64,000 nucleotides of DNA from assembly GCF_029948125.1 (NCBI RefSeq), contig NZ_JASAMB010000004.1, forward strand, positions 248,001 through 312,000, read 5' to 3'. This DNA comes from Catellatospora sp. KI3 (GTDB lineage Bacteria; Actinomycetota; Actinomycetes; Mycobacteriales; Micromonosporaceae). Below, piece by piece: positions 3,891 through 58,621 of the stretch (position 1 is its first letter; the number at the start of each line of letters is the position of its first letter). The notes below the pieces were generated by a model, which saw nothing but the letters and a program-made list of their open reading frames with translations, made no database searches and was not told the origin of the DNA. The position numbers were made by a program, and so were the translations under genes.

Positions 3891-5374
3891 CCGGCCGTCC
3901 GCTCGGCGGCGCGCGCGATGTTGCGGGCCATGCCCCCGAAGATCAGGGCGTGGAAGGGCACGATCGTCCACCAGTACGCGTGCCCGGCCAGCCCGCGCGG
4001 GATGAACACGGCCCGCTGGTCGTACCGGCTGTGCCCGTCGCGGGCCGGGTCGGGGGTCACCCGCAGTTCCAGCCAGGCCCGGCCGGGCAGCCGCATCTCG
4101 GCGCGCAGGCGCAGCAGGCGCCCCGGCTCGATCTCCTCGACCCGCCAGAAGTCCAGCGCCTCCCCGACGTACAGGGCGACCGGGTCGCGGCGGCCGCGGC
4201 GCAGCCCCACCCCGCCGATGAGCCGGTCGAACCAGCCCCGCAGCGCCCAGGCCAGCGGGTACGAGTACCAGCCGGTCTCGCCGCCGATGCCGGTGACCAC
4301 CGACCACAGCGCGCTCGCGGGTGCGGCGACCTGCCGCGTCCGGTTGTCCAGGTACACGCTGCCGCCGGACCAGTCGGGGTCGGTGGGCAGCGGCTCGGCG
4401 GGCGCACCGGTCCAGACGGCGTTCGACCAGCGCGTCTCCACGTCCGCGTCACGGATCTTGACCAGGGCCAGCGCGACGGCCTCGTCGAAGCCCTTGAGCC
4501 CGCCGGGCGGCGGCGGCACGTACGCCTCGATGTCGTGCTCCCGGCAGACCGCCTCGTGCACCAGGCTGGCCACCAGCGGCTTGGCCAGCGCACCGGGCAC
4601 TGGCGTGACCAGCCCGACCCACTGCGAGCTCAGCCAGGGCGAGAGCGTGCGCACGCCCATGATCACGCGCGGGGTCAGCCCGGCGACCCTGGCGTACCGG
4701 TGCATCATGTCGCGGAAGGTGAGCACGTCCGGGCCGCCGATGTCGAACGAGCGGTTCAGGTCGTCGGGCACGCTCGCGAACGCGACCAGGTAGTGCAGCA
4801 CGTCGCGGACCGCGATCGGCTGGATGCGGTTGTCCACCCAGCGCGGGGTGACCATGACGGGCAGCCGTTCGGTCAGGTACCGCAGCATCTCGAACGAGGC
4901 CGAGCCCGACCCGATGATCACCGCGGCGCGCAGCGTCACGGTCGGCACACCGGAGGCGGTCAGGATCGCCCCGACCTCCTCGCGCGAGCGCAGATGCGGC
5001 GAGATCTCGCCGTCGTCGGTCTCGTGCGGCGCCGGTCCGCCCAGGTACACGATGCGCTTCACGCCCGCGCGGCGGGCGGCGGCGGCGAAGGTCTGCGCGG
5101 CGCGGCGGTCGATCCGCTCGAAGTCGCGCGAGCCCAGCGAGTGCACCAGGTAGTACGCGACGTCGATGCCGTCGAGCGCGGCGCGCATGTCGTCGGCGTC
5201 CAGCAGGTCTCCGGTGACGATCTCCGCCTTGGCCGCCCAGGGCACGTCGCGCAGGCGGTTGGCCGACCGGGTCACGCACCGTACCCGGTGCCCGGCCTCG
5301 ATGAGGCGCGGCGCGAGGCGCCCGCCGATATACCCCGTCGCCCCGGTGACGAGCACGCGTGTCTGCTCGGACAT
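3809..5374 (-). CDS. SDR-type NAD(P)-binding protein with C-terminal DUF2867
   Basis: 521 residues. The N-terminal Rossmann domain has VTGATGYIGG (9-18) and an atypical-SDR layout (YYLVHSLGS, YLGGPAPHE). Residues about 365-490 match the DUF2867 pattern (WRVEEIEPGRLLRLRAEMRLPGR, FIPRGLAGHAYW), a SRPBCC-like domain often fused to such dehydrogenases. It is probably a cytoplasmic or membrane-associated oxidoreductase with unknown substrate. The last 27 residues (Ser/Arg rich) lie opposite the 3' end of the arginase-like gene. The start at 5374 is supported by TAGGCT (5381-5386) six bases upstream, implying a leaderless mRNA. Confidence 0.85.
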   Translation of the reverse strand: MSEQTRVLVTGATGYIGGRLAPRLIEAGHRVRCVTRSANRLRDVPWAAKAEIVTGDLLDADDMRAALDGIDVAYYLVHSLGSRDFERIDRRAAQTFAAAARRAGVKRIVYLGGPAPHETDDGEISPHLRSREEVGAILTASGVPTVTLRAAVIIGSGSASFEMLRYLTERLPVMVTPRWVDNRIQPIAVRDVLHYLVAFASVPDDLNRSFDIGGPDVLTFRDMMHRYARVAGLTPRVIMGVRTLSPWLSSQWVGLVTPVPGALAKPLVASLVHEAVCREHDIEAYVPPPPGGLKGFDEAVALALVKIRDADVETRWSNAVWTGAPAEPLPTDPDWSGGSVYLDNRTRQVAAPASALWSVVTGIGGETGWYSYPLAWALRGWFDRLIGGVGLRRGRRDPVALYVGEALDFWRVEEIEPGRLLRLRAEMRLPGRAWLELRVTPDPARDGHSRYDQRAVFIPRGLAGHAYWWTIVPFHALIFGGMARNIARAAERTAGQSRASAWASRSTSSRPQAPSGSLSGL

Positions 5375-5560
5375 ATGCCCAGCCTAGGGCGTTGCGAGGT
5401 CGGGAACCCGGCGGACCGGCGAGGTGGCCCCGACTTCGGGCAACCGCGGTCCGGCCGATCCGCCACCGTCCTACGCTGGAGACGCGGCCCGATCTCGGGG
5501 CCAGCCCTGCGATCGCCGCGCCGGACGCCACCTGATCCGCGCTCAGGAAGGCAGAGCCAC

Positions 5561-5851
5561 ATGTATGTGACGGTACGTCGATACGAGGGTGTGACCGATC
5601 CCCGTGAGGCGGGGCGGCGGGTGCAGGAGGGGTTCGTCCCGATCATCAGGGCGGTTCCGGGCCTGCTGGCCTACTACTGGGTCGACGCCGGAGACGGCGT
5701 GATGGTGTCGACGAGCGTCTTCGAAAGCCAGGCCGGCGCGCAGGAGTCGAACGCGCGGGCCGCGGCCTGGGTGAAGGAGAACCTGGCCCCGCTGCTGCCC
5801 AACCCGCCCCAGATCGCGGCCGGGGAGGTCGTCGCGATCTGGGCCGGGTGA
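5561..5851 (+). CDS. small dimeric alpha/beta-barrel (ABM-like) protein
   Basis: 96 residues. MYVTVRRYEGV at the start, a helix, VPGLLAYYWVDAGDG and VMVSTSVFESQAGAQESNARAAAWVKENL follow the beta-alpha-beta-beta pattern of small dimeric alpha/beta-barrel proteins such as antibiotic biosynthesis monooxygenases. No catalytic residue is identifiable, so function is open; many relatives are orphan stress or quinone-related proteins. GGAAGG at 5547-5552 serves as ribosome binding site for ATG 5561. It is a single gene ending just before a strong shared terminator. Confidence 0.7.
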   Translation: MYVTVRRYEGVTDPREAGRRVQEGFVPIIRAVPGLLAYYWVDAGDGVMVSTSVFESQAGAQESNARAAAWVKENLAPLLPNPPQIAAGEVVAIWAG

Positions 5852-5859
5852 GGCGGACG

Positions 5860-5900
5860 CTGATCGGCGCCGAAGCCGTGCACGGTTCGGCGCCGATCAG
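5860..5900. terminator. bidirectional terminator hairpin
   Basis: Perfect 15-bp arms (CTGATCGGCGCCGAA and its complement) around an 11-base loop, between two convergent genes ending at 5851 and 5913. No U-tract, as usual in high-GC actinomycetes. Confidence 0.85.
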
Positions 5901-5912
5901 CTCGTGCGCGGG

Positions 5913-7163
5913 TCAGCAGCCGATGCGGGTGCCGCCCCAGGCGATGTCGTCGAACCAGAGGCGGTCCGCGCCGACGCCGTAGCTCTCCCAGCCCAGCCGC
6001 AGGTCGGTCAGGTTCGGACGCCAGTTGGCGCGGCTGAGCCACTGCCGGTCCACGTCGGCGGTGGGCACGCCGTCGACCCGCAGGCCGGTCACCTCGGAGC
6101 CGTCGGTCCAGGTCTGCACCTGCCCGGCCGGGCCGTCGACGCGCAGTTCGACGCAGACCCAGCGGTCGACCGGCAGCGGGCGGCTCTGGGCCACCCCGGC
6201 CGGGCTCTGCTCGGGCAGGGTCGCGTCGTCGGACTGCCGGTTCCACTGCAGAGCCGCGTTCTGGCCGCCCACGCGCAGGTCGCGGTTGCCGTCGGCGGCG
6301 TCCTTCATGGCCAGGAACGTGACGTGCGAGGCCGGCAGCGCGGTGGTGTGCCGGACGTAGAAGCGGCCGTACCAGACCCCGCCCAGGGCGCTGAAGTCAC
6401 GCGTCGACTTCACGAACACGTGGTTGCAGTACCCTTCCGCGCCGTCGACCCGGATCGACCTGCTGCCGGTACGGGCCACGGTGCTGTCGACGACGGCGGT
6501 GCCGGTGCCCTGGCAGTCCGGGTAAACCAGCGTCCACGCCCCGGACGGGACGGTGCCGGTCTGGGTCTCGAACCCGTCGCACCACAGCGCCCCGGTGCAG
6601 CCGGTGGGCGGCGGGCCGGACGGCGACGGGCTCGCCGAGCGGCTCGGCGAGACGCTCGGCGACGGCGACGCGCTGCGCGACGGGCTCGCCGACGGGCTGG
6701 GCGAACCGCTGCGCGACGCGCTGGGTGAGGCCGACGGCGACGGGCTGGCGCCGCAGGGCGCGCCGTTGACCGTGAACGCGGTCGGGGCGGTGTTGCTGCT
6801 GGTCCAGGTGCCCTGCATGCCGAACTCCAGGGACGCCCCGGGCGCCAGGTCGGCGTTGTACGCGAGGTTGACCGCGGTGACCGCGGTGCCGGACTGGGTC
6901 ACCGTCGCGTTCCACCCGTTGGTGATCTTCTGGTCGCCGGGCCAGGTCCAGCCGATGGTCCAGCCGTGGATGGCGGTGTCGCCCGCGATGAGTTTCACGT
7001 AGCCGACGAAGCCGCCGGTCCACTGGTCGGCGCGGTAGGTGACCTGGCAGGCCGCGGCGGCGTTGGCGGCGGGCGCGGCGGCGACGACGGCCCCGACGCC
7101 CGCGGCGGTGACCGCGGCGAGGATGGCGGCGGCGGACGCGCGCCATCGTGCGGACAGGTGCAT
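5913..7163 (-). CDS. secreted CBM2 protein with Cip1-like jelly-roll domain
   Basis: 416 residues from ATG 7163. Residues 1-38 form a signal peptide (two Arg/hydrophobic segment ending ANAAAA). CBM2 follows (CQVTYRADQWTGGFVGYV to APTAFTVNGAPC, about 39-140), with the surface Trp pattern of cellulose-binding modules. A Ser-Pro-rich linker (about 143-190) leads to a C-terminal domain starting ALWCDGFE and containing GVWYGRFYVR, HVTFLAMKDAADG, WVCVELRVDGPAGQVQTW and DRLWFDDIAWGGTRIGC. This resembles the polysaccharide-lyase-like jelly roll of fungal Cip1 and its bacterial relatives, enzymes or accessory proteins on plant polysaccharide. Lyase activity is inference. An in-frame extension to 8246 crosses the methyltransferase gene and is not credible. 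Confidence 0.8.
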   Translation of the reverse strand: MHLSARWRASAAAILAAVTAAGVGAVVAAAPAANAAAACQVTYRADQWTGGFVGYVKLIAGDTAIHGWTIGWTWPGDQKITNGWNATVTQSGTAVTAVNLAYNADLAPGASLEFGMQGTWTSSNTAPTAFTVNGAPCGASPSPSASPSASRSGSPSPSASPSRSASPSPSVSPSRSASPSPSGPPPTGCTGALWCDGFETQTGTVPSGAWTLVYPDCQGTGTAVVDSTVARTGSRSIRVDGAEGYCNHVFVKSTRDFSALGGVWYGRFYVRHTTALPASHVTFLAMKDAADGNRDLRVGGQNAALQWNRQSDDATLPEQSPAGVAQSRPLPVDRWVCVELRVDGPAGQVQTWTDGSEVTGLRVDGVPTADVDRQWLSRANWRPNLTDLRLGWESYGVGADRLWFDDIAWGGTRIGC

Positions 7164-48404: not shown

Positions 48405-49643
48405 ATGCCCACCTGGTTGACCTCCCGCCTGCCCACCGACGAGGCCACTCGGGCCCTGATCCTGAGCACGCTCGCCGGGTCCACGTCACGCGGCCTGTTC
48501 ATCACCGTGAGCGTCATCTTCTTCACCCGGTCGGTGGGGCTGTCGGCGGCCGAGGTGGGGCTGGGCCTCACCGTCGCCGCGGTGGCCAGCCTGTTCGCCG
48601 GGGTGCCCGCCGGGCACCTGGCCGACCGGATCGGCCCGCGCGGGGTCATGGTCACCTTCGGCGTCACCCGCGCCGCGCTGATGCTCGGCTACCTCGCGGT
48701 GGACAGCTTCGCCGGGTTCGTCGTCGTCGCCGCCGGGGTGCAGCTGCTGGAGACCGGGTTCGGTGCCGCCAACGGCGCGCTGATCGCCGGTTCGATCCCG
48801 GGTGAGCAGCGCGTACGCACCCGTGCGCTGCTGCGCTCGGTGACCAACGTCGGCTGGGCGATCGGCGCGGCGATCGCGGGCGTGGGGCTCAAGTTCGACA
48901 CCCGCGCCGCGTACACGGCCATCATCGTGGTGTGCGTGGCGATCTCGCTGCTGGCCAGCACCCTGGTGCTGCGCGTGCCGCCGGTGGCCGCGCGGCCGAA
49001 GACGGCATCGGGTCCGACGCTGATCGTGCTCCGCGACCGGCCGTACCTCGCGCTGGCGGCGCTCAACGGGGTGCTGTGCATCCACTACGGCATGCTCAAC
49101 GTGGCCGTGCCCCTCTGGGTGGTCGAGCGCACGGACGCGCCCACCTGGGTCGTCGCCGGGATGACCATGCTCAACGCGGTCGTCGTCGCCCTGTTCCAGG
49201 TCCGGGCCAGCCGCGGTACGGGCTCGGTCGACGGCGCCGCGGCCGCGCAGCGCGTGTCCGGGCTGCTGCTGCTCGGCGCGTGCGTGCTCTACAGCCTCGC
49301 CGCCGGGGTGCCCGGCTGGGCGGCCGCGCTGATCCTGTTCGCGGCGGCCCTGGTGCACGTGCTCGCCGAGCTGCGCCAGGCCGCGGGGTCGTGGGGCATC
49401 TCGTTCGGCCTCGCCCCCGAGCACGCCCAGGGGCAGTACCAGGGCCTCTTCGGCACCGGGTTCTCCGTGGCCGGGGTGGTCGCCCCCGCGCTGCTGGCCA
49501 CGGTGGTGGTGGGCTGGGGCTGGCCGGGCTGGGTCCTGTTCGGTGTCGTGTACGCCCTCGCGGGCGCGGCGGTGCCGGTCGCGGTGCGCTGGGCCCGGCG
49601 TGCCCGCGCCCAGGCGGCGCAGCTCGAACCGGTGCCGGCGTGA
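48405..49643 (+). CDS. MFS transporter
   Basis: 412 residues, about twelve membrane helices. The A-loop motif between helices 2 and 3 is GVPAGHLADRIGPRGVM (about 66-82), the major-facilitator signature. It resembles drug/proton antiporters in length and layout; the substrate is unknown. TAGCGT (48393-48398) lies six bases before the ATG, implying leaderless expression. It is a single gene. Confidence 0.87.
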   Translation: MPTWLTSRLPTDEATRALILSTLAGSTSRGLFITVSVIFFTRSVGLSAAEVGLGLTVAAVASLFAGVPAGHLADRIGPRGVMVTFGVTRAALMLGYLAVDSFAGFVVVAAGVQLLETGFGAANGALIAGSIPGEQRVRTRALLRSVTNVGWAIGAAIAGVGLKFDTRAAYTAIIVVCVAISLLASTLVLRVPPVAARPKTASGPTLIVLRDRPYLALAALNGVLCIHYGMLNVAVPLWVVERTDAPTWVVAGMTMLNAVVVALFQVRASRGTGSVDGAAAAQRVSGLLLLGACVLYSLAAGVPGWAAALILFAAALVHVLAELRQAAGSWGISFGLAPEHAQGQYQGLFGTGFSVAGVVAPALLATVVVGWGWPGWVLFGVVYALAGAAVPVAVRWARRARAQAAQLEPVPA

Positions 49644-49698: not shown

Positions 49699-50223
49699 TC
49701 AGGCCTGGGAGTCGCCGTCGTGCGGCTGGAAGGACGCCACGTAGCGCTGCGGGTCCTTGTCGCGGAACGTAAGGCCCCTGCCCGACGGGTGCTCGCCGTA
49801 GAAGGCCAGCCACTGCGCGCCGAGCTCGGCGCGCAGTTCGTCACTGGCGTGGCGGCGGAAGTCCGGCAGGCCCTCGTCCTCCTCTTCGCCGAGGTGCTCG
49901 GTGTTCTCCCGGCGGGCCTGCCACACGGCGGCCCACCACGGATCCGTGCCGACATCGTGCCTGCGCGACTCCGCGATCGCGTCCCGGATCTTGTTGTGGT
50001 CGCGGATCGCGTCCAGGCTCTCGTCCTCGGCGTCGTCGCCGCCGCGCCGCAGCAGGTGGGGGTAGAGGATGCGCTCCTCGGCCTCGGCGTGGATCTCCAG
50101 GTGGAGCGCGAGCGGCTCCCACACGGCACGCATCTGCTCAGGATCCTTGGCGTCGTCGAGGCGGGCGAAGCCGCGCCGGAAGGAGGCGTGGTCGTCGAGG
50201 ATCAGTGCGGTGATGTCGTCCAT
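49699..50223 (-). CDS. hemerythrin (HHE) domain protein
   Basis: 174 residues. Four-helix HHE pattern: LILDDHASFRRGF (His12), LALHLEIHAEAEERILYPHLL (His/Glu ligands), AIRDHNKIRDAI and ENTEHLGEEEDEGL. It binds a di-iron centre for oxygen or NO handling. TAGAAG (50230-50235) six bases upstream of the ATG suggests a leaderless mRNA. Confidence 0.85.
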   Translation of the reverse strand: MDDITALILDDHASFRRGFARLDDAKDPEQMRAVWEPLALHLEIHAEAEERILYPHLLRRGGDDAEDESLDAIRDHNKIRDAIAESRRHDVGTDPWWAAVWQARRENTEHLGEEEDEGLPDFRRHASDELRAELGAQWLAFYGEHPSGRGLTFRDKDPQRYVASFQPHDGDSQA

Positions 50224-50393
50224 ACCATCCTTCTACCGCAGAACCTCCCTGGTAAACCGCAGCCACACGGCCCGTCGCGCGCCGGGCCGCCGCCCTCGTC
50301 CGGGTGATTCCGTCGTACGTCGGCGGCGCCCATTGCTACCATCACGAGCAGGTATTCCCAGAATTTTCCATTCTCGCCTTTTGGGGTGACTCG

Positions 50394-50726
50394 ATGGAGT
50401 TCGAAGCGCGTGCCCTGCGGGTGCAGCTGCCATGCCAGTCGGTCACGGTGTTCGACGCGGACGGCGAAGACGCCCGGCTGGACGTCCATCGCTACTGGCA
50501 GGCGGTCGCGGCGGGGTTGGTCGGCGGGGTCGACCTGGGCGGGATGTGCGACGACTGCAGTGCCAACCCGTCCGAGCCGCTGTGCACCAACGCGAGCGAG
50601 GACATGGATCCGTTCGCGTTCATCGACTACCGGGTGCTGCCTGTCCTGCGGCGGCAGCTGGAGGCGCGGCTCAACGAGATCGCGCAGGCCGAGCAGGCCG
50701 TGGCAAGGGCCGTCGGCAACGGATAG
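50394..50726 (+). CDS. 110-residue Cys-containing small protein of the lanthipeptide-like operon
   Basis: Starts at ATG 50394 with GGGGTGA seven bases upstream. An open GTG at 50304 would add 30 residues but crosses the A/T-rich promoter area. The N-terminal half is mixed (VQLPCQSVTVFDADG, then a helix). A short segment at 52-70 has three Cys (52, 55, 64) and four Ser/Thr. Residues 73-106 form a long amphipathic helix (FIDYRVLPVLRRQLEARLNE). It lies six bases before the lyase-like gene, so it is surely in the operon. It could be the modified substrate with an internal core and C-terminal follower, or a structural partner of the synthetase. No match to a known precursor family was recognised; the role is unproven. 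Confidence 0.6.
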   Translation: MEFEARALRVQLPCQSVTVFDADGEDARLDVHRYWQAVAAGLVGGVDLGGMCDDCSANPSEPLCTNASEDMDPFAFIDYRVLPVLRRQLEARLNEIAQAEQAVARAVGNG

Positions 50727-50732
50727 CCGCTG

Positions 50733-51809
50733 GTGGAGAAGCGATTCCGCGCCAATCCGCGCTACGAGCTCCACGCCGGCGAGCAGTCGGCGGAGCCGTC
50801 CGAGGAGCCGGTGTACGGCTACCTGCGACCCGTAGCCCCCTCGTCGTCGGCCGGCCGGGCGGTGTCGGCCGACGCGGCGCTGCTGTTCCTGACCCTGCGA
50901 CAGGCAGGCCCGGTGCCGGGGTACTTCCGCTCCCGGCTGGGCGGCCGGACCGACACCCTGCTGCTCCGCCTCGTGCTCGACGGCGTACTGGAAGTGGAGC
51001 ACGCGGGTGGGTTCCTGTCGGGCGACCCCGCCAGACAGGTGCTGCTGGGCGACTCCGGCTACCACGGCGACGGGCCGCTCGCCCGCCTGTCGATCGAGGC
51101 GGTGCGGTACGGGGAAGCACTGGGCGAGCTGCCCTTCCCGGAGCTGACCCGCCGGTTGTACGGCTTCGGTCGGCGCCCCGCGACCGCGGCGCGCAAGCGG
51201 GCCGCGCCCGACCCGGGCCGCGACCGCGCCGCCCGCAGCCGGTACTGGACGCCGGCGTCCGAAGACGAGCACTGGGTCATGTGGCGTCCGCTCCGGCCGC
51301 AGGACACCGCCGAGCAGGCCAGATTCAAGCTCTACATCAGCCCCGACCCGAGCCGGACCGCCGAGGCGTTCGAAGCGGCGGCTGACGTCCTGGGCCATTA
51401 CGCCGGTGCCCGAGGGCTCAAACTCGGACGGGGCCCGGCCGGGCTGACCCGTCCCGACAAGCTCGTCGCCTACTTCTCCCGGCTCGACGATCTCCACGAG
51501 GCGGGTCACGCCCTGCACCGGCGGCTGGCCGGCTGCCCCGTGCACGGCGTCCCCTTCAGCGCCGAGCTGTCGCCCGACGGCCTGCTGTCCTGGGGTGCCG
51601 ACCGGCCCCGCTCCGCGCCCGGCCAGCCCGCGAGCTGGCGCCTGTGGATCGCGGCCCGGCTCGCCGCCCATCTCGGTACGGCTCGCACCAGCGGCGTTCG
51701 CGGCGCGCTGTGGCAATTCGCGCTCGACCGGCTGCGCCTCGACGGGGTGGACACGCGGTCCTGGGCGCCCACCGACGAATTCTGGCTCTCCATGGCGGCC
51801 CCGACATGA
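50733..51809 (+). CDS. stand-alone phospho-Ser/Thr lyase-like protein (HopA1/OspF fold, putative)
   Basis: 358 residues from GTG 50733. The first 170 residues are variable, with a helical LLFLTLRQAGPVPGYF region. Residues 196-293 resemble the lyase domain of LanL/LanKC synthetases and HopA1-type proteins: RFKLYISPDPSRT, GLKLGR, LTRPDKLVAYFSRLDDL, HGVPFSAELSPDGLLSWGAD. Candidate catalytic residues are Lys199, Lys230, Lys243 and Tyr247. The Lys-x-His pair of OspF is Lys-x-Tyr here (199-201). Such enzymes remove phosphate from phosphoserine/threonine to give dehydroamino acids. The stop overlaps the next ATG (ATGA), coupling it to the kinase-cyclase. Assignment rests on motif order, so moderate confidence. 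Confidence 0.6.
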   Translation: MEKRFRANPRYELHAGEQSAEPSEEPVYGYLRPVAPSSSAGRAVSADAALLFLTLRQAGPVPGYFRSRLGGRTDTLLLRLVLDGVLEVEHAGGFLSGDPARQVLLGDSGYHGDGPLARLSIEAVRYGEALGELPFPELTRRLYGFGRRPATAARKRAAPDPGRDRAARSRYWTPASEDEHWVMWRPLRPQDTAEQARFKLYISPDPSRTAEAFEAAADVLGHYAGARGLKLGRGPAGLTRPDKLVAYFSRLDDLHEAGHALHRRLAGCPVHGVPFSAELSPDGLLSWGADRPRSAPGQPASWRLWIAARLAAHLGTARTSGVRGALWQFALDRLRLDGVDTRSWAPTDEFWLSMAAPT

Positions 51810-54142
51810 TCGAAGGTCGGTTCACCCTGCCCGACGACGTACGGCTCGAAGCCGTCGAGTCGATGCCGGCCCAGGTCCTGGCCGGGTTCGCCTACGCGAC
51901 CGGCGACTTCGTGCTGACCCGGCCGCGATCGCGGATGCCGACCCACGTCGTCAACGAGCCGACGATGCGGCTGCTGCGGCTCTTCCGCGAACCGATGACC
52001 ATCACCGACGCCGTCATCGCGTTCTGCGACACGGCGCGGGCCGATCCGGCGACCGTGCTGGACCGCGCGTTCCCGGTGCTGCGCACCCTGATCGGGGCCA
52101 AGCTGCTGCTGCCGGCGGAGTCGCAGCTGGCGTCGCCGATCGAGTTCCTCCTGGCCCCGGGCGAACGGGCCGGCGACCTGGTCATCGAGGAGCCCGTCGC
52201 CATAGTCGCCGACACCGAGGTGTACCGCGCCCGGACCGCCGACCGGGCCTGGGCGGCGATCAAGATGGCGCGCCCAGGGGCGGAGGAGTTCCTGCGGCCG
52301 GCGCTGGACCATGAGGCGTCGGTGCTCGCACTGCTCGGCGGCGGTCACAGCCCGCGGATGCTGGCCCGAGGCGATCACGGCGGTCGGCCGTTCCTGGCGA
52401 TGGAGTGGTGCCAGGGCGTGGACGCGCTCGCCGCCGCCGAGCTGATCCGCGGTCGCTCGCCGGTCGACTGGCAGGAGATGACGCGGCTTGTCATCGCGGT
52501 CGCCGACGCGTACACCGCACTTCACGGACAGGGCGTCCTGCACGGCGACGTCCACCCGCGCAATCTCCTGATCGGCAGATCCGGCCAGGCCACATTGATC
52601 GACTTCGGCCAGGCCCGCTGCCTGCGGGCCGGACCGGTACGCCAACGGCCCGGCCGGGGCGTGGTCGACCTGTACATGGAGCCGGAACTGGCCCGGACCC
52701 GCCTCGCCGGGGACGGCGCGCCGCCGCCCACCGAGGCAGGCGAGCAGTACTCCGTCGCCGCACTGGTCTACTTCCTGATCTCAGGCTCGCACACGCACGA
52801 CTTCGTCCTCGAAGAGCGGCAGATGCTACGACAGGTCGCCGACGACGCACCGAGGCCCCTCGCCGAGCGGGGCCTACGAGGATTCGACCGCACGGACCGG
52901 GTGCTGCGGCGGGCCCTGGCGAAGGAGCCCGAAGCCCGCTACCCGGACGTCGCGCAGTTCAGGACCGCGCTGCGGCAGGCGCTCAGGCGGGACCGCAGAC
53001 CGCGGACCTCCCCGGTACGACCACAGCCGGGCGCGCCCCTGCTGGAGGCGTTCCTCGAACGGTCGGCTGTCGGCGGCTCGCTGATGTCGGAGGGTCTCGA
53101 AGCGCCACTGGCCTCACTCAACCTCGGATCCGCAGGACTGGCGTTCGCGCTCCTGCGGATCGCGCAGCGCCGCGACGCCGCGTCGCTACTGGCCGCCGCC
53201 GACGTCTGGAGCCAGCGGGCGCTGCGCGCGTTCGAGTCCGCCGGTCCGGCCGCGTTCACCGCCCCGGACCTGGAGATGACGCCCGAGCTCGTCGGTGAGG
53301 TCTCGCTGTTCCACTTCCGGCCCGGTGCGCTCTGCGTGGCGGCACTGGTCGCCGACGCGCAGTCCGATGAGGTCAGATGCACGCAGGCGGTCGAGTCGTT
53401 CATCGCCTCCGCCGCTGCCCGCGATCCGCGCGCCGAGGTCGTGTTCGGCCAGGCCGGGCTGCTTCTCGGCTGCGGTCTGCTACTGGACGCGATCGGTGCG
53501 CGACCCGGGCTGGCGGCGCTGGGCGGCGACCTGCACAGCGGGCTGCTCGACCAGGTCGGGGACATAGGCGAGTCGACCAGCCTCGGGGTGGCCCACGGCT
53601 ACGCGGGCGTCCTGTACGCACTGCTGCAGTGGACGAAGACGGCCGGCGCGGAGGTGCCCGGTGCGCTCCGACGACGCCTCGGACAGCTGGCGGACCTGGC
53701 CCGGCCCACGGGCAGAGGGCTGGGCTGGCCGGTGTCCGCGCGAGCCGGCCGCGCCCTCGACGGCCTGCGCGGCACCTGGTGCAACGGGGCCGCGGGCCAG
53801 CTGCACCTCTGGCTGCTGGCCCACGAGCTGCTGGAGGACAGCCGCTACCTGGACCTCGCGACGCAGGCCGCCTGGACGTGCCACGAGGCGCAGAGCACCG
53901 GAGGCGATCTGTGCTGCGGCTCGGCCGGCAGGGCGTATGCGCTGCTGCGCCTCTTCCGCCATACCGGTAGCCAGGTCTGGCTCACGCGCGCTCGGCAGTC
54001 GGCCGACCATGCCGCGACGGCGATCCGCCGCCGCCGGCTGCGAAGCAGCAGCCTGTACCGGGGCGAAGCAGGTGTCTGCCTGCTGACCGCCGAACTGGAC
54101 GACCCGCACCAGGCCCGCATGCCGATGTTCGAGCTCACTTGA
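51806..54142 (+). CDS. RRE-like - protein kinase - LanC-type cyclase fusion
   Basis: 778 residues from ATG 51806. Residues 1-105 look like a PqqD/RRE-type winged helix (VVNEPTMRLLRLFREPMTITDAV, VLRTLIGAKLLLP), a precursor-binding module. The kinase domain (about 128-395) has Lys153, Glu170, HGDVHPRN with Asp248 and Asn253, and DFG at 266-268. The LanC-like barrel (about 430-778) has AHG (His597), WCNG (Cys659) and CCG (Cys703, Cys704). The usual Cys-His zinc pair is Cys-Cys, giving a three-cysteine zinc site as in ProcM. The N-terminal lyase domain of class III/IV synthetases is missing and is probably supplied by the upstream gene. Predicted role: phosphorylate Ser/Thr and close thioether rings. 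Confidence 0.85.
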   Translation: MIEGRFTLPDDVRLEAVESMPAQVLAGFAYATGDFVLTRPRSRMPTHVVNEPTMRLLRLFREPMTITDAVIAFCDTARADPATVLDRAFPVLRTLIGAKLLLPAESQLASPIEFLLAPGERAGDLVIEEPVAIVADTEVYRARTADRAWAAIKMARPGAEEFLRPALDHEASVLALLGGGHSPRMLARGDHGGRPFLAMEWCQGVDALAAAELIRGRSPVDWQEMTRLVIAVADAYTALHGQGVLHGDVHPRNLLIGRSGQATLIDFGQARCLRAGPVRQRPGRGVVDLYMEPELARTRLAGDGAPPPTEAGEQYSVAALVYFLISGSHTHDFVLEERQMLRQVADDAPRPLAERGLRGFDRTDRVLRRALAKEPEARYPDVAQFRTALRQALRRDRRPRTSPVRPQPGAPLLEAFLERSAVGGSLMSEGLEAPLASLNLGSAGLAFALLRIAQRRDAASLLAAADVWSQRALRAFESAGPAAFTAPDLEMTPELVGEVSLFHFRPGALCVAALVADAQSDEVRCTQAVESFIASAAARDPRAEVVFGQAGLLLGCGLLLDAIGARPGLAALGGDLHSGLLDQVGDIGESTSLGVAHGYAGVLYALLQWTKTAGAEVPGALRRRLGQLADLARPTGRGLGWPVSARAGRALDGLRGTWCNGAAGQLHLWLLAHELLEDSRYLDLATQAAWTCHEAQSTGGDLCCGSAGRAYALLRLFRHTGSQVWLTRARQSADHAATAIRRRRLRSSSLYRGEAGVCLLTAELDDPHQARMPMFELT

Positions 54143-54237: not shown

Positions 54238-54882
54238 ATGGCCGAGATCAAATCTCCCACCCCGGCGAAAGCCTTCGAACTGCTGCTCTCCGGGAACCAC
54301 CGCTTCGTGGTCGGCTCCCCGGAGCACCCGAACCAGGACGCGATCCGGCGTGCCCAGATCGCGCCAGGTCAGCGGCCGTTCGCCGTGGTCTTCGGCTGCT
54401 CCGACTCCCGCCTTGCCGCCGAGATCATCTTCGATCGCGGCCTGGGCGACCTCTTCGTGGTCCGCACCGCGGGCCACGTGATGGGCGCCGAGGTGCTGGG
54501 CAGCATCGAGTACGGAGCAGCCGTGCTCGACTGCCCGCTCGTGGTGGTCCTCGGCCACGACTCGTGCGGCGCGGTGGGCGCCGCGTGCGCCGCGCTGGAG
54601 GACGGCATCGCACCGAGCGGGTACATCCGCGACGTCATCGAGCGGGTGACCCCGAGTGTGCTCGCCGCGCGGGCCGCGGGGCGGTTCGAGCCGGACGAGA
54701 TCCTGGCTGAGCACATCCGGCACACCGTCGAGCTGATCCTGGACCGCTCGCGGGTGCTGTCGGAGCGGGTCGAGGCCGGCCAGGCCGCGGTCGTCGGCCT
54801 GTGCTACCGGCTCGCCGACGGAAGCGCCCAGGTGGTGGCGGCCCGGGGCCTCGACCTCTCGGCGACCGCTCCGCGCGCCTGA
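54238..54882 (+). CDS. beta-class carbonic anhydrase
   Basis: 214 residues. Zinc ligands Cys54 (CSDSR, with Asp56/Arg58 dyad), His107 and Cys110 (GHDSCGAV) mark the beta class. It interconverts CO2 and bicarbonate in the cytoplasm. TAGGCT (54226-54231) six bases before the ATG suggests leaderless expression. It is independent of the upstream lanthipeptide-like operon and convergent with the SARP gene. Confidence 0.93.
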   Translation: MAEIKSPTPAKAFELLLSGNHRFVVGSPEHPNQDAIRRAQIAPGQRPFAVVFGCSDSRLAAEIIFDRGLGDLFVVRTAGHVMGAEVLGSIEYGAAVLDCPLVVVLGHDSCGAVGAACAALEDGIAPSGYIRDVIERVTPSVLAARAAGRFEPDEILAEHIRHTVELILDRSRVLSERVEAGQAAVVGLCYRLADGSAQVVAARGLDLSATAPRA

Positions 54883-55040
54883 CGGGGAGCGGGCCGGAAG
54901 ACCGTAATCGGCTGGCGGCCGCGAACGCCTTGATACATCGGCATGACCGATTTCGATTAAGGGCAGTTCGACGGCGGCCAGAGGCGACGGCTCGGTGCGC
55001 CCGGAGGCCGCCTGGGTCGGATGAGGTCGGCCGGCGCCGG

Positions 55041-57929
55041 TCAGGTGCGCACGAGCGGGTCGTTGCGCAGGGTGGGATCGGCCTGGCGCAGCCGTTCCCG
55101 GATCTGGGCGGCGTCGGGGTGGCCGAGCTGGTCCAGCGTGGCCAGGGCCCGCCGCAGCGCGGCCCGGGCCGCCTCGGCGTCGCCGACCGCCCAGTGGGTG
55201 GTGGCCAGGTTGGCGTCGCTGACCGCCCGTCCGTACTGGTCGCCGACCTGCTCGAACAGGGTGATCGCCCGCTGGTAGCACGCGACCGCGCGGGCGTGCT
55301 GCCCCAGTTGGTGGTGGGCGTGGCCGAGGCTGTCCCACGTGTCGGCCTCACCCTGCCGGTCGCCGACGTCGCGGAGCAGGTCGAGCGCCTGCTCGCAGTA
55401 GGTCACCGCCTGCTCGTGGTCACCCAGCAGGGTCAGCTTCCAGCCGATCATGTTCAGGGTGTACGCCTGCCCGGCCGGGTTGCCGTCGCGCCTGAACTCC
55501 TCGCGGGCCAGCCGCGCGTGGCGCAGCGCGGCGTCCAGGTCGCCCTGCCGCTCGGTGAGCATGGACAGGTTGACCCGGGTGTGCCCGGCCCCGGACGCCT
55601 CGCCGAGCTCCTCGAACAGGCGCAGCGCCTGGTCCAGGTGACCGGCGGCCTGGCGGTCGCCGCCGAGGCGGAAGTACGCCATGCCGAGTTCGCGGTGGCA
55701 GTGCGCCCGTCCGGTCAGGTCGCCGCCGCGTTCGGCGGCCGCGAGCGCGGTCTCCTGGACCGCGAGCCGGTCCGCCCACTGCCCGCGCCGGTCCAGGTCG
55801 CGGGCCATGCTCCAGGCGAGCTGCCAGGCGTGGACGGGGCTGCCGCCGCGCGCGGCGTGTGCCACGGTGAGCAGCAGACCGGCCCGTTCGGCCGCGAACC
55901 ATGCCTGCGCCGCGGACTCGCCGCCGATCTCCGGCAGCACCGTGCCCGGGGCCGCCGCGGCCAGGCGCAGGGAGCTGAACGGCGGGTGCAGTGCGAGCGT
56001 CGCGGCGTAGGACGTGTGCAGGTAGTGGTCGAGCATGCGGGTGCGGGCGTCATCGCGCCGACCGCGCCCGCCCGCGCCGTCGGCGAGGTCCTCGGCGTAG
56101 GCGCGCAGCAGGTCGTGCAGGACGTACCGGTCCGAGCCCGACGGGGTGACCAGGTTCGCGCCGACGAGTTCGGCGAGGACGGGGTAAGTGCGCCGTACGG
56201 GCAGCCCGAGCAGGCTCGCTGCGGCACCGATCCCGAGGTCGGGGCCCGGGTGCAGGCCGAGCAGGGTGAACAGCTCCGCCGCCGGGGCGCTCAGCCCACG
56301 GTAGGACCAGGAGAAGACCGCGCGCAGGTCGGTCGCGGGGTCGCCGTCGCCGCGCAGCGTGTCGAGCACTCCCGCCGGGTCGGCGAGCTGGTCGGCCAGC
56401 GCCGCGAGGGTCTGCTGCGGGCGGGTCGCGGCCAGGGCGGCGGCGATGGACAGCGCCAGCGGCAGCCCGCCGCAGCGGGCGACGATCGCCTCGGTAGCGG
56501 CGGGCTCGGCGGCGACGCGGCGGGCGCCCAGTCGGCCGTGCAGCAGCTGGCAGGCCTGCTCGTCGGTCATCGGGCCTAGGTCGACGGGGCGGGCGCCGTC
56601 GGTGGCGACGAGTCCGGTGAGCCGGTTGCGGCTGGTCACCAGCACCAGGCTGCCGGGTGCCCCGGGCAGCAGCGGCCGCACCTGGGCGACGTCGCGGGCG
56701 TTGTCGAGCAGCACCAGCATCCGCCGCCCGGCCAGCAGGCTGCGGTAGAGGCCGAGTTGCGCGTCGACGCTGTGCGGCATGCGGGCGGCGGGCACGCCCA
56801 GCGCGTCGAGGAACGCGCGGACCACCGCCGCGGTGTCCAGGACCGCCTCGTCGTCGGGGTCGAAGCCGCGCAGGTTGACGTACAGGCTGCCGTCGGGGAA
56901 CCGGTCCATGACCCGGTGCGCCCAGCTGACCGTGAGCGCCGTCTTGCCGATCCCGGCCGGGCCGGAGACGATCACCGGCGGCGCCGGTGCGGGCGCCCCG
57001 GTGCCGGGCAGGGCCTCGTCGAGCTGGGCGAGCTCGTCCGCGCGACCGGCGAAGCCCGGCACCGGGGGCGGCAGCTGCGCGGGCAGCGGCCACGCGGCCT
57101 GCTCCGGCGCGACGGGCGCCGCGTCGGCGGGGTCGGATCGCGGGGCCGGTCCGGCCTCAGCCGACAGCTGCGGGTCCTGGGCGAGGATCCGCCGGTGGAC
57201 CTCGGCCAGCTGCGGCGAGGGCTCGATGCCGTACCGGTCGGCGAAGACCGTCCGCACCTCGCGGAACACCGCGAGCGCCTCGGCCTGCCGATCGGCCCGA
57301 TAAAGGGCGATCATCAACTGGCTCCAGAGGCGCTCGCGCTCAGGGTGCGCGCGGCACAGCGCCTCCAGCTCCGCGACCACGTCGGCGCCGGTGGCCAGGG
57401 CGGAGGTGAGCCGCTCCTCGCTGATGCTCAGCCGCAGGCGCCGCAGGCGGTCGGCGGCGGCCGGGAGGGCGTCGCCGCCGTCGAACTCGGCGAACGCGTC
57501 GCCGCGCCACAACCCGAGGGCCTCGTCCAGCAGCGCCACGGCCTCGGCATGGCGTCCGCCGGACGCGGCGTCGCGGCCGGTCTTGGCGAGCTGCTCGAAG
57601 CGGGTGGCGTCGAGGGCGTCGCGGTCGACCCGCAGCAGGTAGCCGGGTGCCGCGGTGACGAGTTCGACGCCCCCGGCCCGCACCAGCGGCCCGAGCGCGG
57701 CCCGCAGGCGGGAGACGTAGGTGCGGATGGTCCGCTCGGCGTCGGCCGGAGCGTCATCGGCCCAGACCTCACGGGCCAGCGCGGTGACGCTGACGGCGCG
57801 CCCGGCCTGGGCGAGCAGTCGGGCCAGGACGGTGCGGATGTTCGGCCCGCCGACCGGCACCGGGTGCCCGTCGTGACTGACCTCCAGCGGCCCGAGCACC
57901 CGGAAGGTGAGACCGTGCGTCGCTTCCAT
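55041..57929 (-). CDS. SARP-family regulator: DNA-binding - BTAD - NB-ARC - TPR (AfsR-like)
   Basis: 962 residues from ATG 57929, with AGGAGGG four bases upstream. Winged-helix DNA-binding domain about 8-100 (FRVLGPLEV, TVLARLLAQAGRAVSVTALAREVW, YVSRLRAAL), BTAD 108-252. The NB-ARC ATPase has Walker A GPAGIGKT (323-330) and Walker B LVLLDNARD near 400. TPR repeats fill about 690-940. The AfsR type activates secondary metabolism from tandem heptamer sites. Four such heptamers lie in the divergent gap at 58052-58091, so it probably activates the PLAT gene directly, and perhaps the PKS genes beyond. Confidence 0.92.
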   Translation of the reverse strand: MEATHGLTFRVLGPLEVSHDGHPVPVGGPNIRTVLARLLAQAGRAVSVTALAREVWADDAPADAERTIRTYVSRLRAALGPLVRAGGVELVTAAPGYLLRVDRDALDATRFEQLAKTGRDAASGGRHAEAVALLDEALGLWRGDAFAEFDGGDALPAAADRLRRLRLSISEERLTSALATGADVVAELEALCRAHPERERLWSQLMIALYRADRQAEALAVFREVRTVFADRYGIEPSPQLAEVHRRILAQDPQLSAEAGPAPRSDPADAAPVAPEQAAWPLPAQLPPPVPGFAGRADELAQLDEALPGTGAPAPAPPVIVSGPAGIGKTALTVSWAHRVMDRFPDGSLYVNLRGFDPDDEAVLDTAAVVRAFLDALGVPAARMPHSVDAQLGLYRSLLAGRRMLVLLDNARDVAQVRPLLPGAPGSLVLVTSRNRLTGLVATDGARPVDLGPMTDEQACQLLHGRLGARRVAAEPAATEAIVARCGGLPLALSIAAALAATRPQQTLAALADQLADPAGVLDTLRGDGDPATDLRAVFSWSYRGLSAPAAELFTLLGLHPGPDLGIGAAASLLGLPVRRTYPVLAELVGANLVTPSGSDRYVLHDLLRAYAEDLADGAGGRGRRDDARTRMLDHYLHTSYAATLALHPPFSSLRLAAAAPGTVLPEIGGESAAQAWFAAERAGLLLTVAHAARGGSPVHAWQLAWSMARDLDRRGQWADRLAVQETALAAAERGGDLTGRAHCHRELGMAYFRLGGDRQAAGHLDQALRLFEELGEASGAGHTRVNLSMLTERQGDLDAALRHARLAREEFRRDGNPAGQAYTLNMIGWKLTLLGDHEQAVTYCEQALDLLRDVGDRQGEADTWDSLGHAHHQLGQHARAVACYQRAITLFEQVGDQYGRAVSDANLATTHWAVGDAEAARAALRRALATLDQLGHPDAAQIRERLRQADPTLRNDPLVRT

Positions 57930-58051
57930 CAGCCCTCCTGTCAGGGCAATTCTGACCGCGGACGGGATCGGCTGCCACTGATATCGGGTACCGGACACAG
58001 TGGACGGCACGGGGCATCCCGTCCCTGGTCGCGGCTGGCGGGCGGAGTGCT

Positions 58052-58091
58052 GTCGACGCGCTGTCGACGGATCGTCGACGGGTCGTCGAAA
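58052..58091. promoter_or_regulatory. SARP-type binding site: four heptamers at 11-bp pitch
   Basis: GTCGACG at 58052, 58063 and 58074 and GTCGAAA at 58085, each separated by exactly four bases. Direct heptamer repeats of one helical turn are the classical SARP target. They sit 53 bp before the PLAT gene start and face the SARP gene. Confidence 0.82.
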
Positions 58092-58144
58092 CCGGGCCGC
58101 ATCGTCGTCGGCAGGAACGAACCAGTCCGATCGACGGAGGAATC

Positions 58145-58621
58145 ATGAACATCAGGGCAGCGCTCTCGGCGACCGCGATCGCGATCACCGCAGTGGTGGC
58201 CTTCACCGGCCAGGGCGCCTCGGCCGCGCCCGCCACCCCGGCCGGCACGACTGCGGGCGTGGTCACCCTCGCGGGTCCGGGCTACAACGTGACGGTCCGC
58301 ACGGGCGACCTCTCGAGCGCGGGCACGGACGCGAACATCTACATCCGGGCGTACGGCCTGCTGGCCGTCTCCTCGGAGAAGCAGCTCGACGACTCGCGCG
58401 ACAACTTCGAGCGCAACAGCACCGAGACGTTCGGCGTGACGAGCTGGGCCGACCTGGGCCGCATCGACGGCATCGGGCTGCGCAAGGACGGCAGCGGGTC
58501 GGAGTGGTACCCGGAGTGGGTCAGCATCCAGAACCTGGTCACCGGGGCGGTGGCGTTCTGCTCGGTCTACACCTGGTACCCGGACGGCGCGGCGACGAAG
58601 TACTTCTCCTGCGCCAACTGA
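58145..58621 (+). CDS. secreted PLAT/LH2-domain protein
   Basis: 158 residues. Signal peptide about 1-28 (ends GASAAPA). The mature part is a single PLAT/LH2 beta sandwich: YNVTVRTGDLSSAGTDANIYIRAYG, FERNSTETFGVTSWADLGRIDGIGLRKDGSGSEWYPEWVSIQN. These domains bind lipid or protein surfaces; small secreted PLAT proteins in actinomycetes have no settled function. GGAGGA five bases before the ATG. The four SARP heptamers just upstream make it the most probable direct target of the divergent regulator. A strong hairpin follows. Confidence 0.88.
   Translation: MNIRAALSATAIAITAVVAFTGQGASAAPATPAGTTAGVVTLAGPGYNVTVRTGDLSSAGTDANIYIRAYGLLAVSSEKQLDDSRDNFERNSTETFGVTSWADLGRIDGIGLRKDGSGSEWYPEWVSIQNLVTGAVAFCSVYTWYPDGAATKYFSCAN

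Follow-up and report, generated by a model that had tools for sequence, protein, structure and literature searches.

Lanthipeptide classes are distinguished by the architecture of their synthetases (papers are cited here by PubMed Central number and for the portions of their text that were accessible). Class III LanKC and class IV LanL enzymes carry lyase, kinase and LanC-like parts in one chain, and in the class III enzyme ThurKC a leader helix is located between the kinase and the lyase (PMC10604976). Class V, represented by cacaoidin, lexapeptide and SmoA/SmoC, employs a stand-alone HopA1-type lyase, LanY, together with a separate kinase, LanK, of the APH type (PF01636). The name class VI is already used for the streptococcal LanKCb enzymes (He et al. 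2023, cited in PMC12328550 and PMC10676316). Here we describe a three-gene locus in a 64,000-nucleotide stretch of DNA, hereafter the window, from Catellatospora sp. KI3 (NZ_JASAMB010000004.1, positions 248,001 to 312,000). Its open reading frames (ORFs) encode a precursor-like protein of 110 residues, a predicted lyase of 358 residues, and a synthetase of 778 residues in which a domain resembling the recognition element (RRE) of ribosomally synthesized and post-translationally modified peptides (RiPPs) is followed by a kinase and a LanC cyclase. This architecture, in which the first-pass annotation of this DNA saw from the letters alone a possibly undescribed class, fits none of classes I–VI as they are described in the accessible literature.

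We propose, with a probability of about 0.8, that the three genes form a self-contained RiPP system of the lanthipeptide type, in which both enzymes dock on one precursor via related RRE-like domains. In the 110-residue precursor a Cys/Ser/Thr core would be flanked by a conserved strand-like motif at the N-terminus and a conserved helix at the C-terminus. Core Ser and Thr would be phosphorylated by the kinase domain of the RRE-kinase-LanC synthetase, the separate RRE-lyase would remove the phosphate to leave dehydroalanine or dehydrobutyrine (Dha/Dhb), and the zinc-type LanC domain would add core Cys to these residues, giving (methyl)lanthionine rings. In classes III and IV lyase and kinase are physically fused; here, docking through RRE-like domains would do the work of that fusion. 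Phosphorylation, elimination and ring closure are proposed because of the families to which the enzymes belong. Computation showed the make-up of the trio and its recurrence across loci, the protein folds, the conservation of catalytic residues and the existence of a precursor family; the chemical steps, the pairing of RREs with precursor flanks and the role of the product are inferred.

Gene arrangement and recurrence of the trio

All three genes are on the plus strand of the window (Table 1). The sequence GGGGTGA at 50383-50389 lies ahead of the 110-residue ORF, the GTG start of the lyase gene is located 6 bases past the stop codon of that ORF, and the lyase and synthetase genes overlap by 4 bases (ATGA). 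An ORF check agreed with the first-pass annotation on the coordinates of the three genes, on the lengths of 110, 358 and 778 residues, and on the gap and the overlap. The same annotation had expected the genes to recur together in other genomes, and lyase, kinase-cyclase and small ORF indeed stand together in all 11 loci compared, i.e., the window, Nitrospira, plasmids of Cupriavidus and Paenibacillus, and seven further genomes. Seven of the loci were found via the lyase and three via the kinase-cyclase, the remaining one being the window, and the two enzymes occur together in 11/11. Precursor, lyase and synthetase follow one another in this order on one strand in 10 of the 11; the exception is Cupriavidus, in which the synthetase gene is convergent and an RRE-oxygenase gene comes after the lyase.

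Lyase matches at E ≤ 0.001, with the own genome included, were found in 3 of 249 genomes of the order (one of the three being a chance match), 5 of 300 of the family, 3 of 345 of the class and 3 of 396 of the phylum, and in 1 of 118 genomes around that of Nitrospira, namely Nitrospira itself; these samples overlap, and part of the first-look candidates was scored (e.g., 5 of 101), so that misses are possible. Two of 72,556 plasmid records hold both the lyase and the synthetase, and a scan of genome contigs with the window synthetase yielded one full-length relative, in Nitrospira sp. RSF1. The low match counts across the samples indicate that the trio is rare and scattered. A lyase match in an ABC-transporter region of L011 (genome G008; 82 residues, E value 8.9e-4) was rejected as chance, and L013 (Thermomicrobiales), which matched over residues 196-398 only, was not counted. 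Searches of viral contigs with a single lyase and with the lyase alignment gave 4 and 112 stretches matching the pattern, none of which was confirmed. Among phages, the Paenibacillus synthetase matched 21 records, none of them over 80% of the query, and the 20 rows listed fall in or around the kinase part.

The lyase and the putative RRE-like docking domains

The 358-residue protein gave no NCBIfam row at E ≤ 5, its sole Pfam row (PsbI, E value 0.34) was taken as chance, and the lyase profile returned a single row from the PDB sequences, an antibody chain at E 1.5. A structure model was built from 8 of the 10 lyases then in hand (predicted local distance difference test, pLDDT, 84.0; predicted template modelling score, pTM, 0.84). 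A Foldseek search with this model gave 323 matches at E ≤ 10, including 19 at E ≤ 0.001. The best match was HopA1 (4rsw; E value 5.2e-8), with further matches to HopA1 (4rsx), class V LxmY (9dk2_B; E value 2.6e-6) and the class III synthetase structures SalKC, PneKC, CuvL and ThurKC. Of the 323 matches 50 were listed, and the top 30 of these are all HopA1, LxmY, class III synthetases or SpvC/OspF/VirA. The predicted fold is of the phosphothreonine-lyase type (HopA1, LxmY, LanKC, SpvC/OspF), in line with the assignment made at first pass.

In the alignment of 10 lyases, K199, Y201, K230 and R240 are invariant and Y247 is present in nine. The catalytic residues listed in PMC9486802 are K104, H106, K136, R148 and Y158 for SpvC and R187, K219, R229 and Y236 for CaoY; in the latter R187, K219 and R229 were mutated, and Y236 is named there. 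The spacing of K199-K230-R240-Y247 is 31/10/7, as compared with 32/10/7 for CaoY R187-K219-R229-Y236. At the aligned sites, the new lyases have the Lys of OspF and LanKC at the first position, yet are without the equivalent of His106, as is LanY.

Profile-profile comparison with hhalign gave the lyase profile a score of 62.1 against 11 LanY/HopA1 domains (60 column shuffles, at most 18.2), 47.7 against five LanL-type lyases (shuffles at most 22.8), and 34.1 against LanKC lyases (shuffles at most 25.7), while the LanY profile scored 22.0 against LanL and LanKC together (shuffles at most 19.9), all of these being small profiles of 5-11 rows each. The tests employed 10 of the 11 lyases, the later-found L036 having the same motifs, and the LanY profile was drawn from 11 of 15 loci, L038, L047, L050 and L051 being omitted as partial or near-identical. 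Because the new lyases match both LanY and LanL/LanKC, which scarcely match each other, they connect the HopA1/LanY and LanKC/LanL lineages at the level of sequence. According to the accessible part of PMC9486802, no significant similarity had emerged in earlier work when HopA1-like RiPP proteins were aligned by sequence with OspF and LanKC/LanL, and that paper itself aligned the three groups by predicted secondary structure. The initial description of the locus as intermediate between known architectures holds in this one sense, that the lyase profile matches both lineages.

Residues 1-128 of the synthetase match no Pfam family at E ≤ 1. In a model built on 8 of the 11 RREs available at that stage (pLDDT 86.6; pTM 0.73), strands at 13-16, 35-38 and 47-49 are followed by helices at 51-61, 66-77 and 81-97, with a short extra helix at 22-25 after the first strand. 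The model has the order βββ-ααα by which the RRE is defined in PMC12710340. When it was compared with the PDB by Foldseek, 19 of the first 20 rows were RiPP enzymes or RREs, and the other was a Rickettsia methyltransferase. Rows named include PqqD (5sxy), TbiB1, TigE, MibB, MadB, TglHI, MccB, McbBCD and PbtF, of which MibB, MadB, TigE and TglHI are enzymes with RRE-like parts. The same domain (profile E value 1.1e-36) also precedes a 2-oxoglutarate (2OG)-Fe(II) oxygenase (Pfam E value 3.2e-12) in Cupriavidus (L016:14378-15286, minus strand) and is thus a transferable module.

The lyase also appears to begin with such a domain. Its residues 1-115 align end to end with the RREs, with scores of 30.3 (10 rows) and 31.9 (8 rows) and 80 shuffles each at no more than 18.2 and 19.8, and the model of this part, with strands at 11-15, 29-33 and 42-44 and helices at 46-54 and 63-82, is a partial fit to the RRE. 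The N-termini of 11 LanY proteins match neither the lyase N-domain (8.5; 40 shuffles, at most 13.3) nor the RRE (12.4; at most 15.0), so that the RRE-like domain is a feature of the new lyases and not of those LanY proteins. The system therefore reads as an RRE-lyase acting with an RRE-kinase-cyclase. The proposal made at first pass, that the lyase had been detached and an RRE put in its place, stands as regards the separate lyase; a simple replacement would be at odds with the putative RRE-like N-domain of the lyase itself.

The kinase-cyclase and the precursor family

Pfam assigns LANC_like (E value 8.1e-25; residues 437-777) and Pkinase (E value 1.7e-11; residues 140-331) to the 778-residue protein. 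The kinase scores 44.4 bits as Pkinase and 29 bits as APH (PF01636, cut-off 23.2), both above the Pfam cut-off. The RRE-like-kinase-LanC fusion recognized at first pass is borne out by these matches and, for the RRE, by the model and by Foldseek with modest E values. The window synthetase contains HGDVHPRN, LIDFG, GVAHG, WCNGAAG and LCCGSAG. HGD, AHG and LCCG are kept in 9/9 uninterrupted synthetases, and WCNG was found by script in eight and seen in the alignment for the ninth, from Paenibacillus. The Cys-Cys-Cys zinc triad is of the CCG type described for ProcM (PMC10027976, PMC11251773). In L014 (~4347-6722, minus strand) a stop codon lies in the cyclase part, and L027 (7938-10479, plus strand) has a frame change; either sequencing error or decay may be the cause, and intact relatives exist.

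A maximum-likelihood tree of the kinase and cyclase parts was computed from 9 of the 11 synthetases (the interrupted L014 and L027 were left out), nine class III and five class IV-type proteins. The nine synthetases form one clade (support 100/100) apart from the class III and class IV-type proteins, and the row nearest to it is the LanL-like L056 (89/86), which with 621 bits itself misses the LanL cut-off of 650. L055, which passes both cut-offs and scores higher as class III (805 vs 652 bits), falls among the class III proteins, and class IV thus does not form a single group here. Two pairings within the new clade run against taxonomy, Cupriavidus with L036 (92/90) and Paenibacillus with L024 (91/91), which suggests horizontal transfer; the Cupriavidus and Paenibacillus records are plasmids.

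One could regard the trio as a split class IV LanL, the lyase piece of which has moved to a gene of its own. LanL (NF038150) is the best NCBIfam match of the 778-residue protein, at 142 bits, and spans only the kinase and cyclase part of the model (positions 197-807), without the lyase part; the lyase profile matches LanL-type lyases, and L056 is the nearest neighbour of the new clade. We nevertheless consider this origin unlikely: the LanL cut-off is 650 bits, far above the score obtained, a long branch leads to the single 100/100 clade of the kinase-cyclases, the lyase resembles LanY more than LanL, and the zinc triad is Cys-Cys-Cys. As in classes III and IV, the kinase is followed by a LanC-like domain in one chain, and the lyase is related to theirs in fold and profile. 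The differences are that the chain contains no lyase, which has its own ORF, that an RRE occupies the N-terminus, and that the clade is separate. The zinc-binding LanC of class IV is present (WCNG, LCCG), with a triad of CCC instead of CCH. With respect to class III, NF038151 gives 63 bits vs a cut-off of 575, and a zinc triad, which class III lacks, is present. The window's genome also encodes a class III LanKC (L088, G000:C17:91712-94216), with 697 bits vs that cut-off.

The 110-residue protein matches no Pfam or NCBIfam family at E ≤ 5, and tblastn found no match to it among plasmids at E 0.1, though its profile finds members on two of them. A leave-one-out profile, built each time from the other loci and run against all six-frame ORFs of at least 40 residues (117-729 per locus), ranked the small ORF first in 11/11 loci (E values 2.5e-17 to 1.3e-7), the window precursor being first of 729 ORFs at 1.7e-10. 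The next-best rows start at E 0.0057, except for one at 0.0016 in L025, which is the second precursor of that locus. The Paenibacillus precursor, which was outside every training set, was top-ranked at 7.1e-14.

The usual RiPP precursor consists of a leader and then a core; in this family, by comparison, a core lies between two conserved flanks. The alignment of 11 precursors (two from L025 and none from Paenibacillus) has a conserved N-terminal strand-like motif, [FY]-x4-[LV]-x-[VIL] followed by LP, IP or MP, then a variable Cys/Ser/Thr-rich middle, and a conserved, Cys-free C-terminal segment with the consensus L-x-x-[LF]-[RK]-x-x-L-x-x-x-[LM]. The middle contains 3 to 15 Cys and the C-terminal zone has none in 11/11; apart from the Cys of an LPC or IPC motif, all Cys are in the middle in every aligned precursor. 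The window precursor has four Cys, three of them in the variable middle. As a guess, the N-terminal strand motif may suit the cleft of an RRE, and the C-terminal helix may face the kinase or the lyase (compare the leader helix of ThurKC, located between these two parts; PMC10604976).

The suggestion made at first pass that the small Cys-containing protein is the likely substrate gains support from this family and its top profile rank in all 11 loci. It might instead be an accessory or structural protein, the enzymes acting on something else, given that the conserved parts are N- and C-terminal, that the flanks could serve another purpose and that the window core is Cys-poor. This is very unlikely in view of the variable Cys/Ser/Thr-rich middle, repeated in some relatives (CTCSCT, ten AGASC/Y units, three Paenibacillus cores), of the small ORF adjoining the lyase in 11/11 loci, and of the precursor-profile matches at E ≤ 0.1, which lie at the cluster in the 11 genomes or records searched, bar one (E 0.02, G368).

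Several of the relatives have unusual cores. L025 (8515-9233, minus strand) and L028 (6387-6806, plus strand) have cores in which Cys alternates with Ser/Thr (CTCSCTCSC type), and their subclade has a shorter N-terminal lyase part and an altered DFG motif. The precursor of L036 (8674-9336, minus strand) has ten near-identical AGASC/Y units in a row, followed by a proline-rich Cys stretch. The precursor of the Paenibacillus peoriae plasmid NZ_CP011513.1 (L015, 9783-10592, plus strand) has three near-identical cores of the CGITCLASCGLFSV type, flanked by four copies of the helix segment; the GMFRTVDLAANV stretch of its repeat, which might correspond to the N-terminal strand motif, is aligned by profile to the stretch following the helix.

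A number of observations weigh against the proposed system. The structure models of the lyase and the RRE each derive from 8 sequences, the Foldseek E values of the RRE are modest (best 4.4e-3, none ≤ 0.001), and the evidence for an RRE-like domain on the lyase consists of its secondary structure and a profile match with a probability of 50-59%. The invariant Tyr201 stands where SpvC/OspF have the catalytic His106. DFG is replaced by DFP in L025 and by DFR in L028, and 2 of the 11 synthetase genes are not intact: that of L014 has an in-frame stop, and that of L027, with DYG and WCHG motifs, is divided over two frames. The window core has only three Cys. Finally, no exporter or protease is common to the stretches compared (11 loci of 8.4-26 kb, 20 kb for the window).

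In the same stretches no gene besides the trio is common to all loci, and, antisense frames and one precursor pair aside, the sole neighbour shared outside the trio is a SARP-type regulator in 2/11, the window and L028. These regulators (BTAD, NB-ARC) are both on the minus strand, at 2640-4727 in L028 and as given in Table 1 for the window; a regulatory link with the trio is possible. In the Cupriavidus oxalaticus plasmid NZ_CP038636.1 (L016, 14378-20188, minus strand), the RRE-2OG-Fe(II) oxygenase and a full-length LanB (PF04738, E value 3.5e-136; PF14028, 1.1e-53) are found beside the trio, the LanB placing two unrelated dehydration systems in one cluster. In Nitrospira sp. RSF1 (L012, 9748-13763, plus strand), the trio is followed by genes for two B12-binding radical S-adenosylmethionine (SAM) proteins, which are possible tailoring enzymes. 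With these extra enzymes in mind, a system that dehydrates its substrate and makes mainly non-lanthionine products, e.g., Dha/Dhb peptides, labionins or further tailored products, can be envisaged. All nine uninterrupted copies compared retain the LanC motifs with their zinc Cys, and we regard such an outcome as quite unlikely.

Within the window, the trio is bordered by genes for which Table 1 gives the positions. ORFs at 54801-56579 and 56757-58148 are probably on the wrong strand, the real gene being the minus-strand ORF of 989 residues, and a small PLAT/LH2 domain protein (PF01477, E value 4.7e-16) is encoded at 58145-58621 on the plus strand. Third-position G+C is 0.89-0.91 in the trio vs 0.92-0.97 in three neighbours; it is slightly lower, and the trio is not foreign by that measure.

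Table 1. Features of the three-gene locus and its neighbours (positions in the window)
Feature	Position	Strand	Basis or remark
ORF 1, LanA-like precursor, 110 residues	50394-50726	+	start ATG
N-terminal strand-like motif, residues 1-14	50394-50435	+	conserved in precursor alignment; putative strand and leader for the RRE
Putative core, residues 51-70	50544-50603	+	Cys52, Cys55, Cys64, Ser56, Ser60, Thr65, Ser68; proposed role
C-terminal Cys-free helix-like segment	50634-50723	+	alignment; putative helix, possible follower/recognition element
ORF 2, phospho-Ser/Thr lyase, HopA1/LanY-type fold, 358 residues	50733-51809	+	start GTG; predicted fold, profile match
RRE-like N-terminal domain of lyase, ~residues 1-95	50733-51017	+	profile match, secondary structure
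Catalytic lyase region, ~residues 170-345	51240-51767	+	K199, Y201, K230, R240, Y247 by comparison with CaoY/SpvC
ORF 3, RRE-kinase-LanC synthetase, 778 residues	51806-54142	+	start ATG; Pfam, NCBIfam, motifs
RRE of synthetase, winged helix βββ-ααα, ~residues 1-105	51806-52120	+	model, Foldseek
Ser/Thr kinase domain, ~residues 131-400	52196-53005	+	Pfam; HGDVHPRN and DFG motifs
LanC cyclase, residues 437-777	53114-54136	+	Pfam; AHG, WCNG, LCCG motifs; Cys-Cys-Cys zinc triad
MFS transporter	48405-49643	+	neighbour
Hemerythrin-domain gene	49699-50223	-	neighbour
Carbonic anhydrase	54238-54882	+	neighbour
SARP-type regulator, 989 residues	55041-58010	-	neighbour; BTAD 7.8e-39

Comparison with known lanthipeptide systems

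The trio is probably a new synthetase class within the lanthipeptide-type RiPPs. We lean slightly towards a separate class in a fuller sense, in which an RRE-lyase, an RRE-kinase-cyclase and, in Cupriavidus, possibly an RRE-oxygenase are brought to one precursor by one type of docking domain, the core having a leader strand on one side and a follower helix on the other, and the lyase linking the HopA1/LanY and OspF/LanKC lineages. A modular docking plan of this kind could suit the combination of enzymes. No description of a separate RRE-lyase with an RRE-kinase-LanC protein was found among the papers listed by full-text searches of open-access literature, and since subscription papers were mostly outside this search an earlier description is possible. 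The word "kinase" is absent from the RRE surveys PMC12710340 and PMC7470986. Section 3.2 of PMC11251773, as far as accessible, states that the four cyclase-dehydratase combinations not described before also turned up in a survey. Under its scheme a lyase with a CCC cyclase would belong to these, so that the survey may have counted the bare combination; the section does not describe the present architecture.

Alternatively, the trio could be a subtype of class V, in which the APH-type LanK and the separate cyclase were swapped for a kinase-LanC fusion, rather than a class of its own; we hold this to be possible, though doubtful. Like the LanY proteins, the lyase is on its own chain and has Lys, Arg and Tyr at the positions of CaoY K219, R229 and Y236 (PMC9486802); both its fold and its profile match HopA1/LanY best. 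The kinase passes the Pfam cut-off for APH, and LanC is used by class Vb (PMC12328550), a report which renders incomplete the first-pass statement that class V is without a classic LanC. Against a class V origin, the lyase has no match to the HopA1 family of Pfam (PF17914), its resemblance being in fold and profile-profile comparison, and has Lys where LanY has Arg187. The kinase, moreover, scores higher as Pkinase than as APH and is fused to LanC rather than separate, an RRE-like domain is located on both enzymes and is missing from the 11 LanY N-termini, and the precursor core lies between two conserved flanks.

The LanKCb enzymes of class VI likewise have a kinase with a LanC-like part. They differ, by their description in the accessible texts, in that lyase and cyclase are both truncated and belong to one protein and the products are miniature, whereas here the lyase is separate and the LanC domain is full-length. 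With RRE-bearing RiPP enzymes such as PqqD, TbiB1, MccB, MibB and PbtF the synthetase has in common the winged-helix RRE fold, and among the 50 Foldseek rows listed none is titled as an RRE joined to a kinase-LanC protein or to a phosphothreonine lyase. The CCG zinc motif of the cyclase is shared with the ProcM-type LanM enzymes (PMC10027976, PMC11251773), from which the trio differs in its dehydratase and in having its precursors at the cluster rather than scattered (11 genomes or records, one weak match aside).

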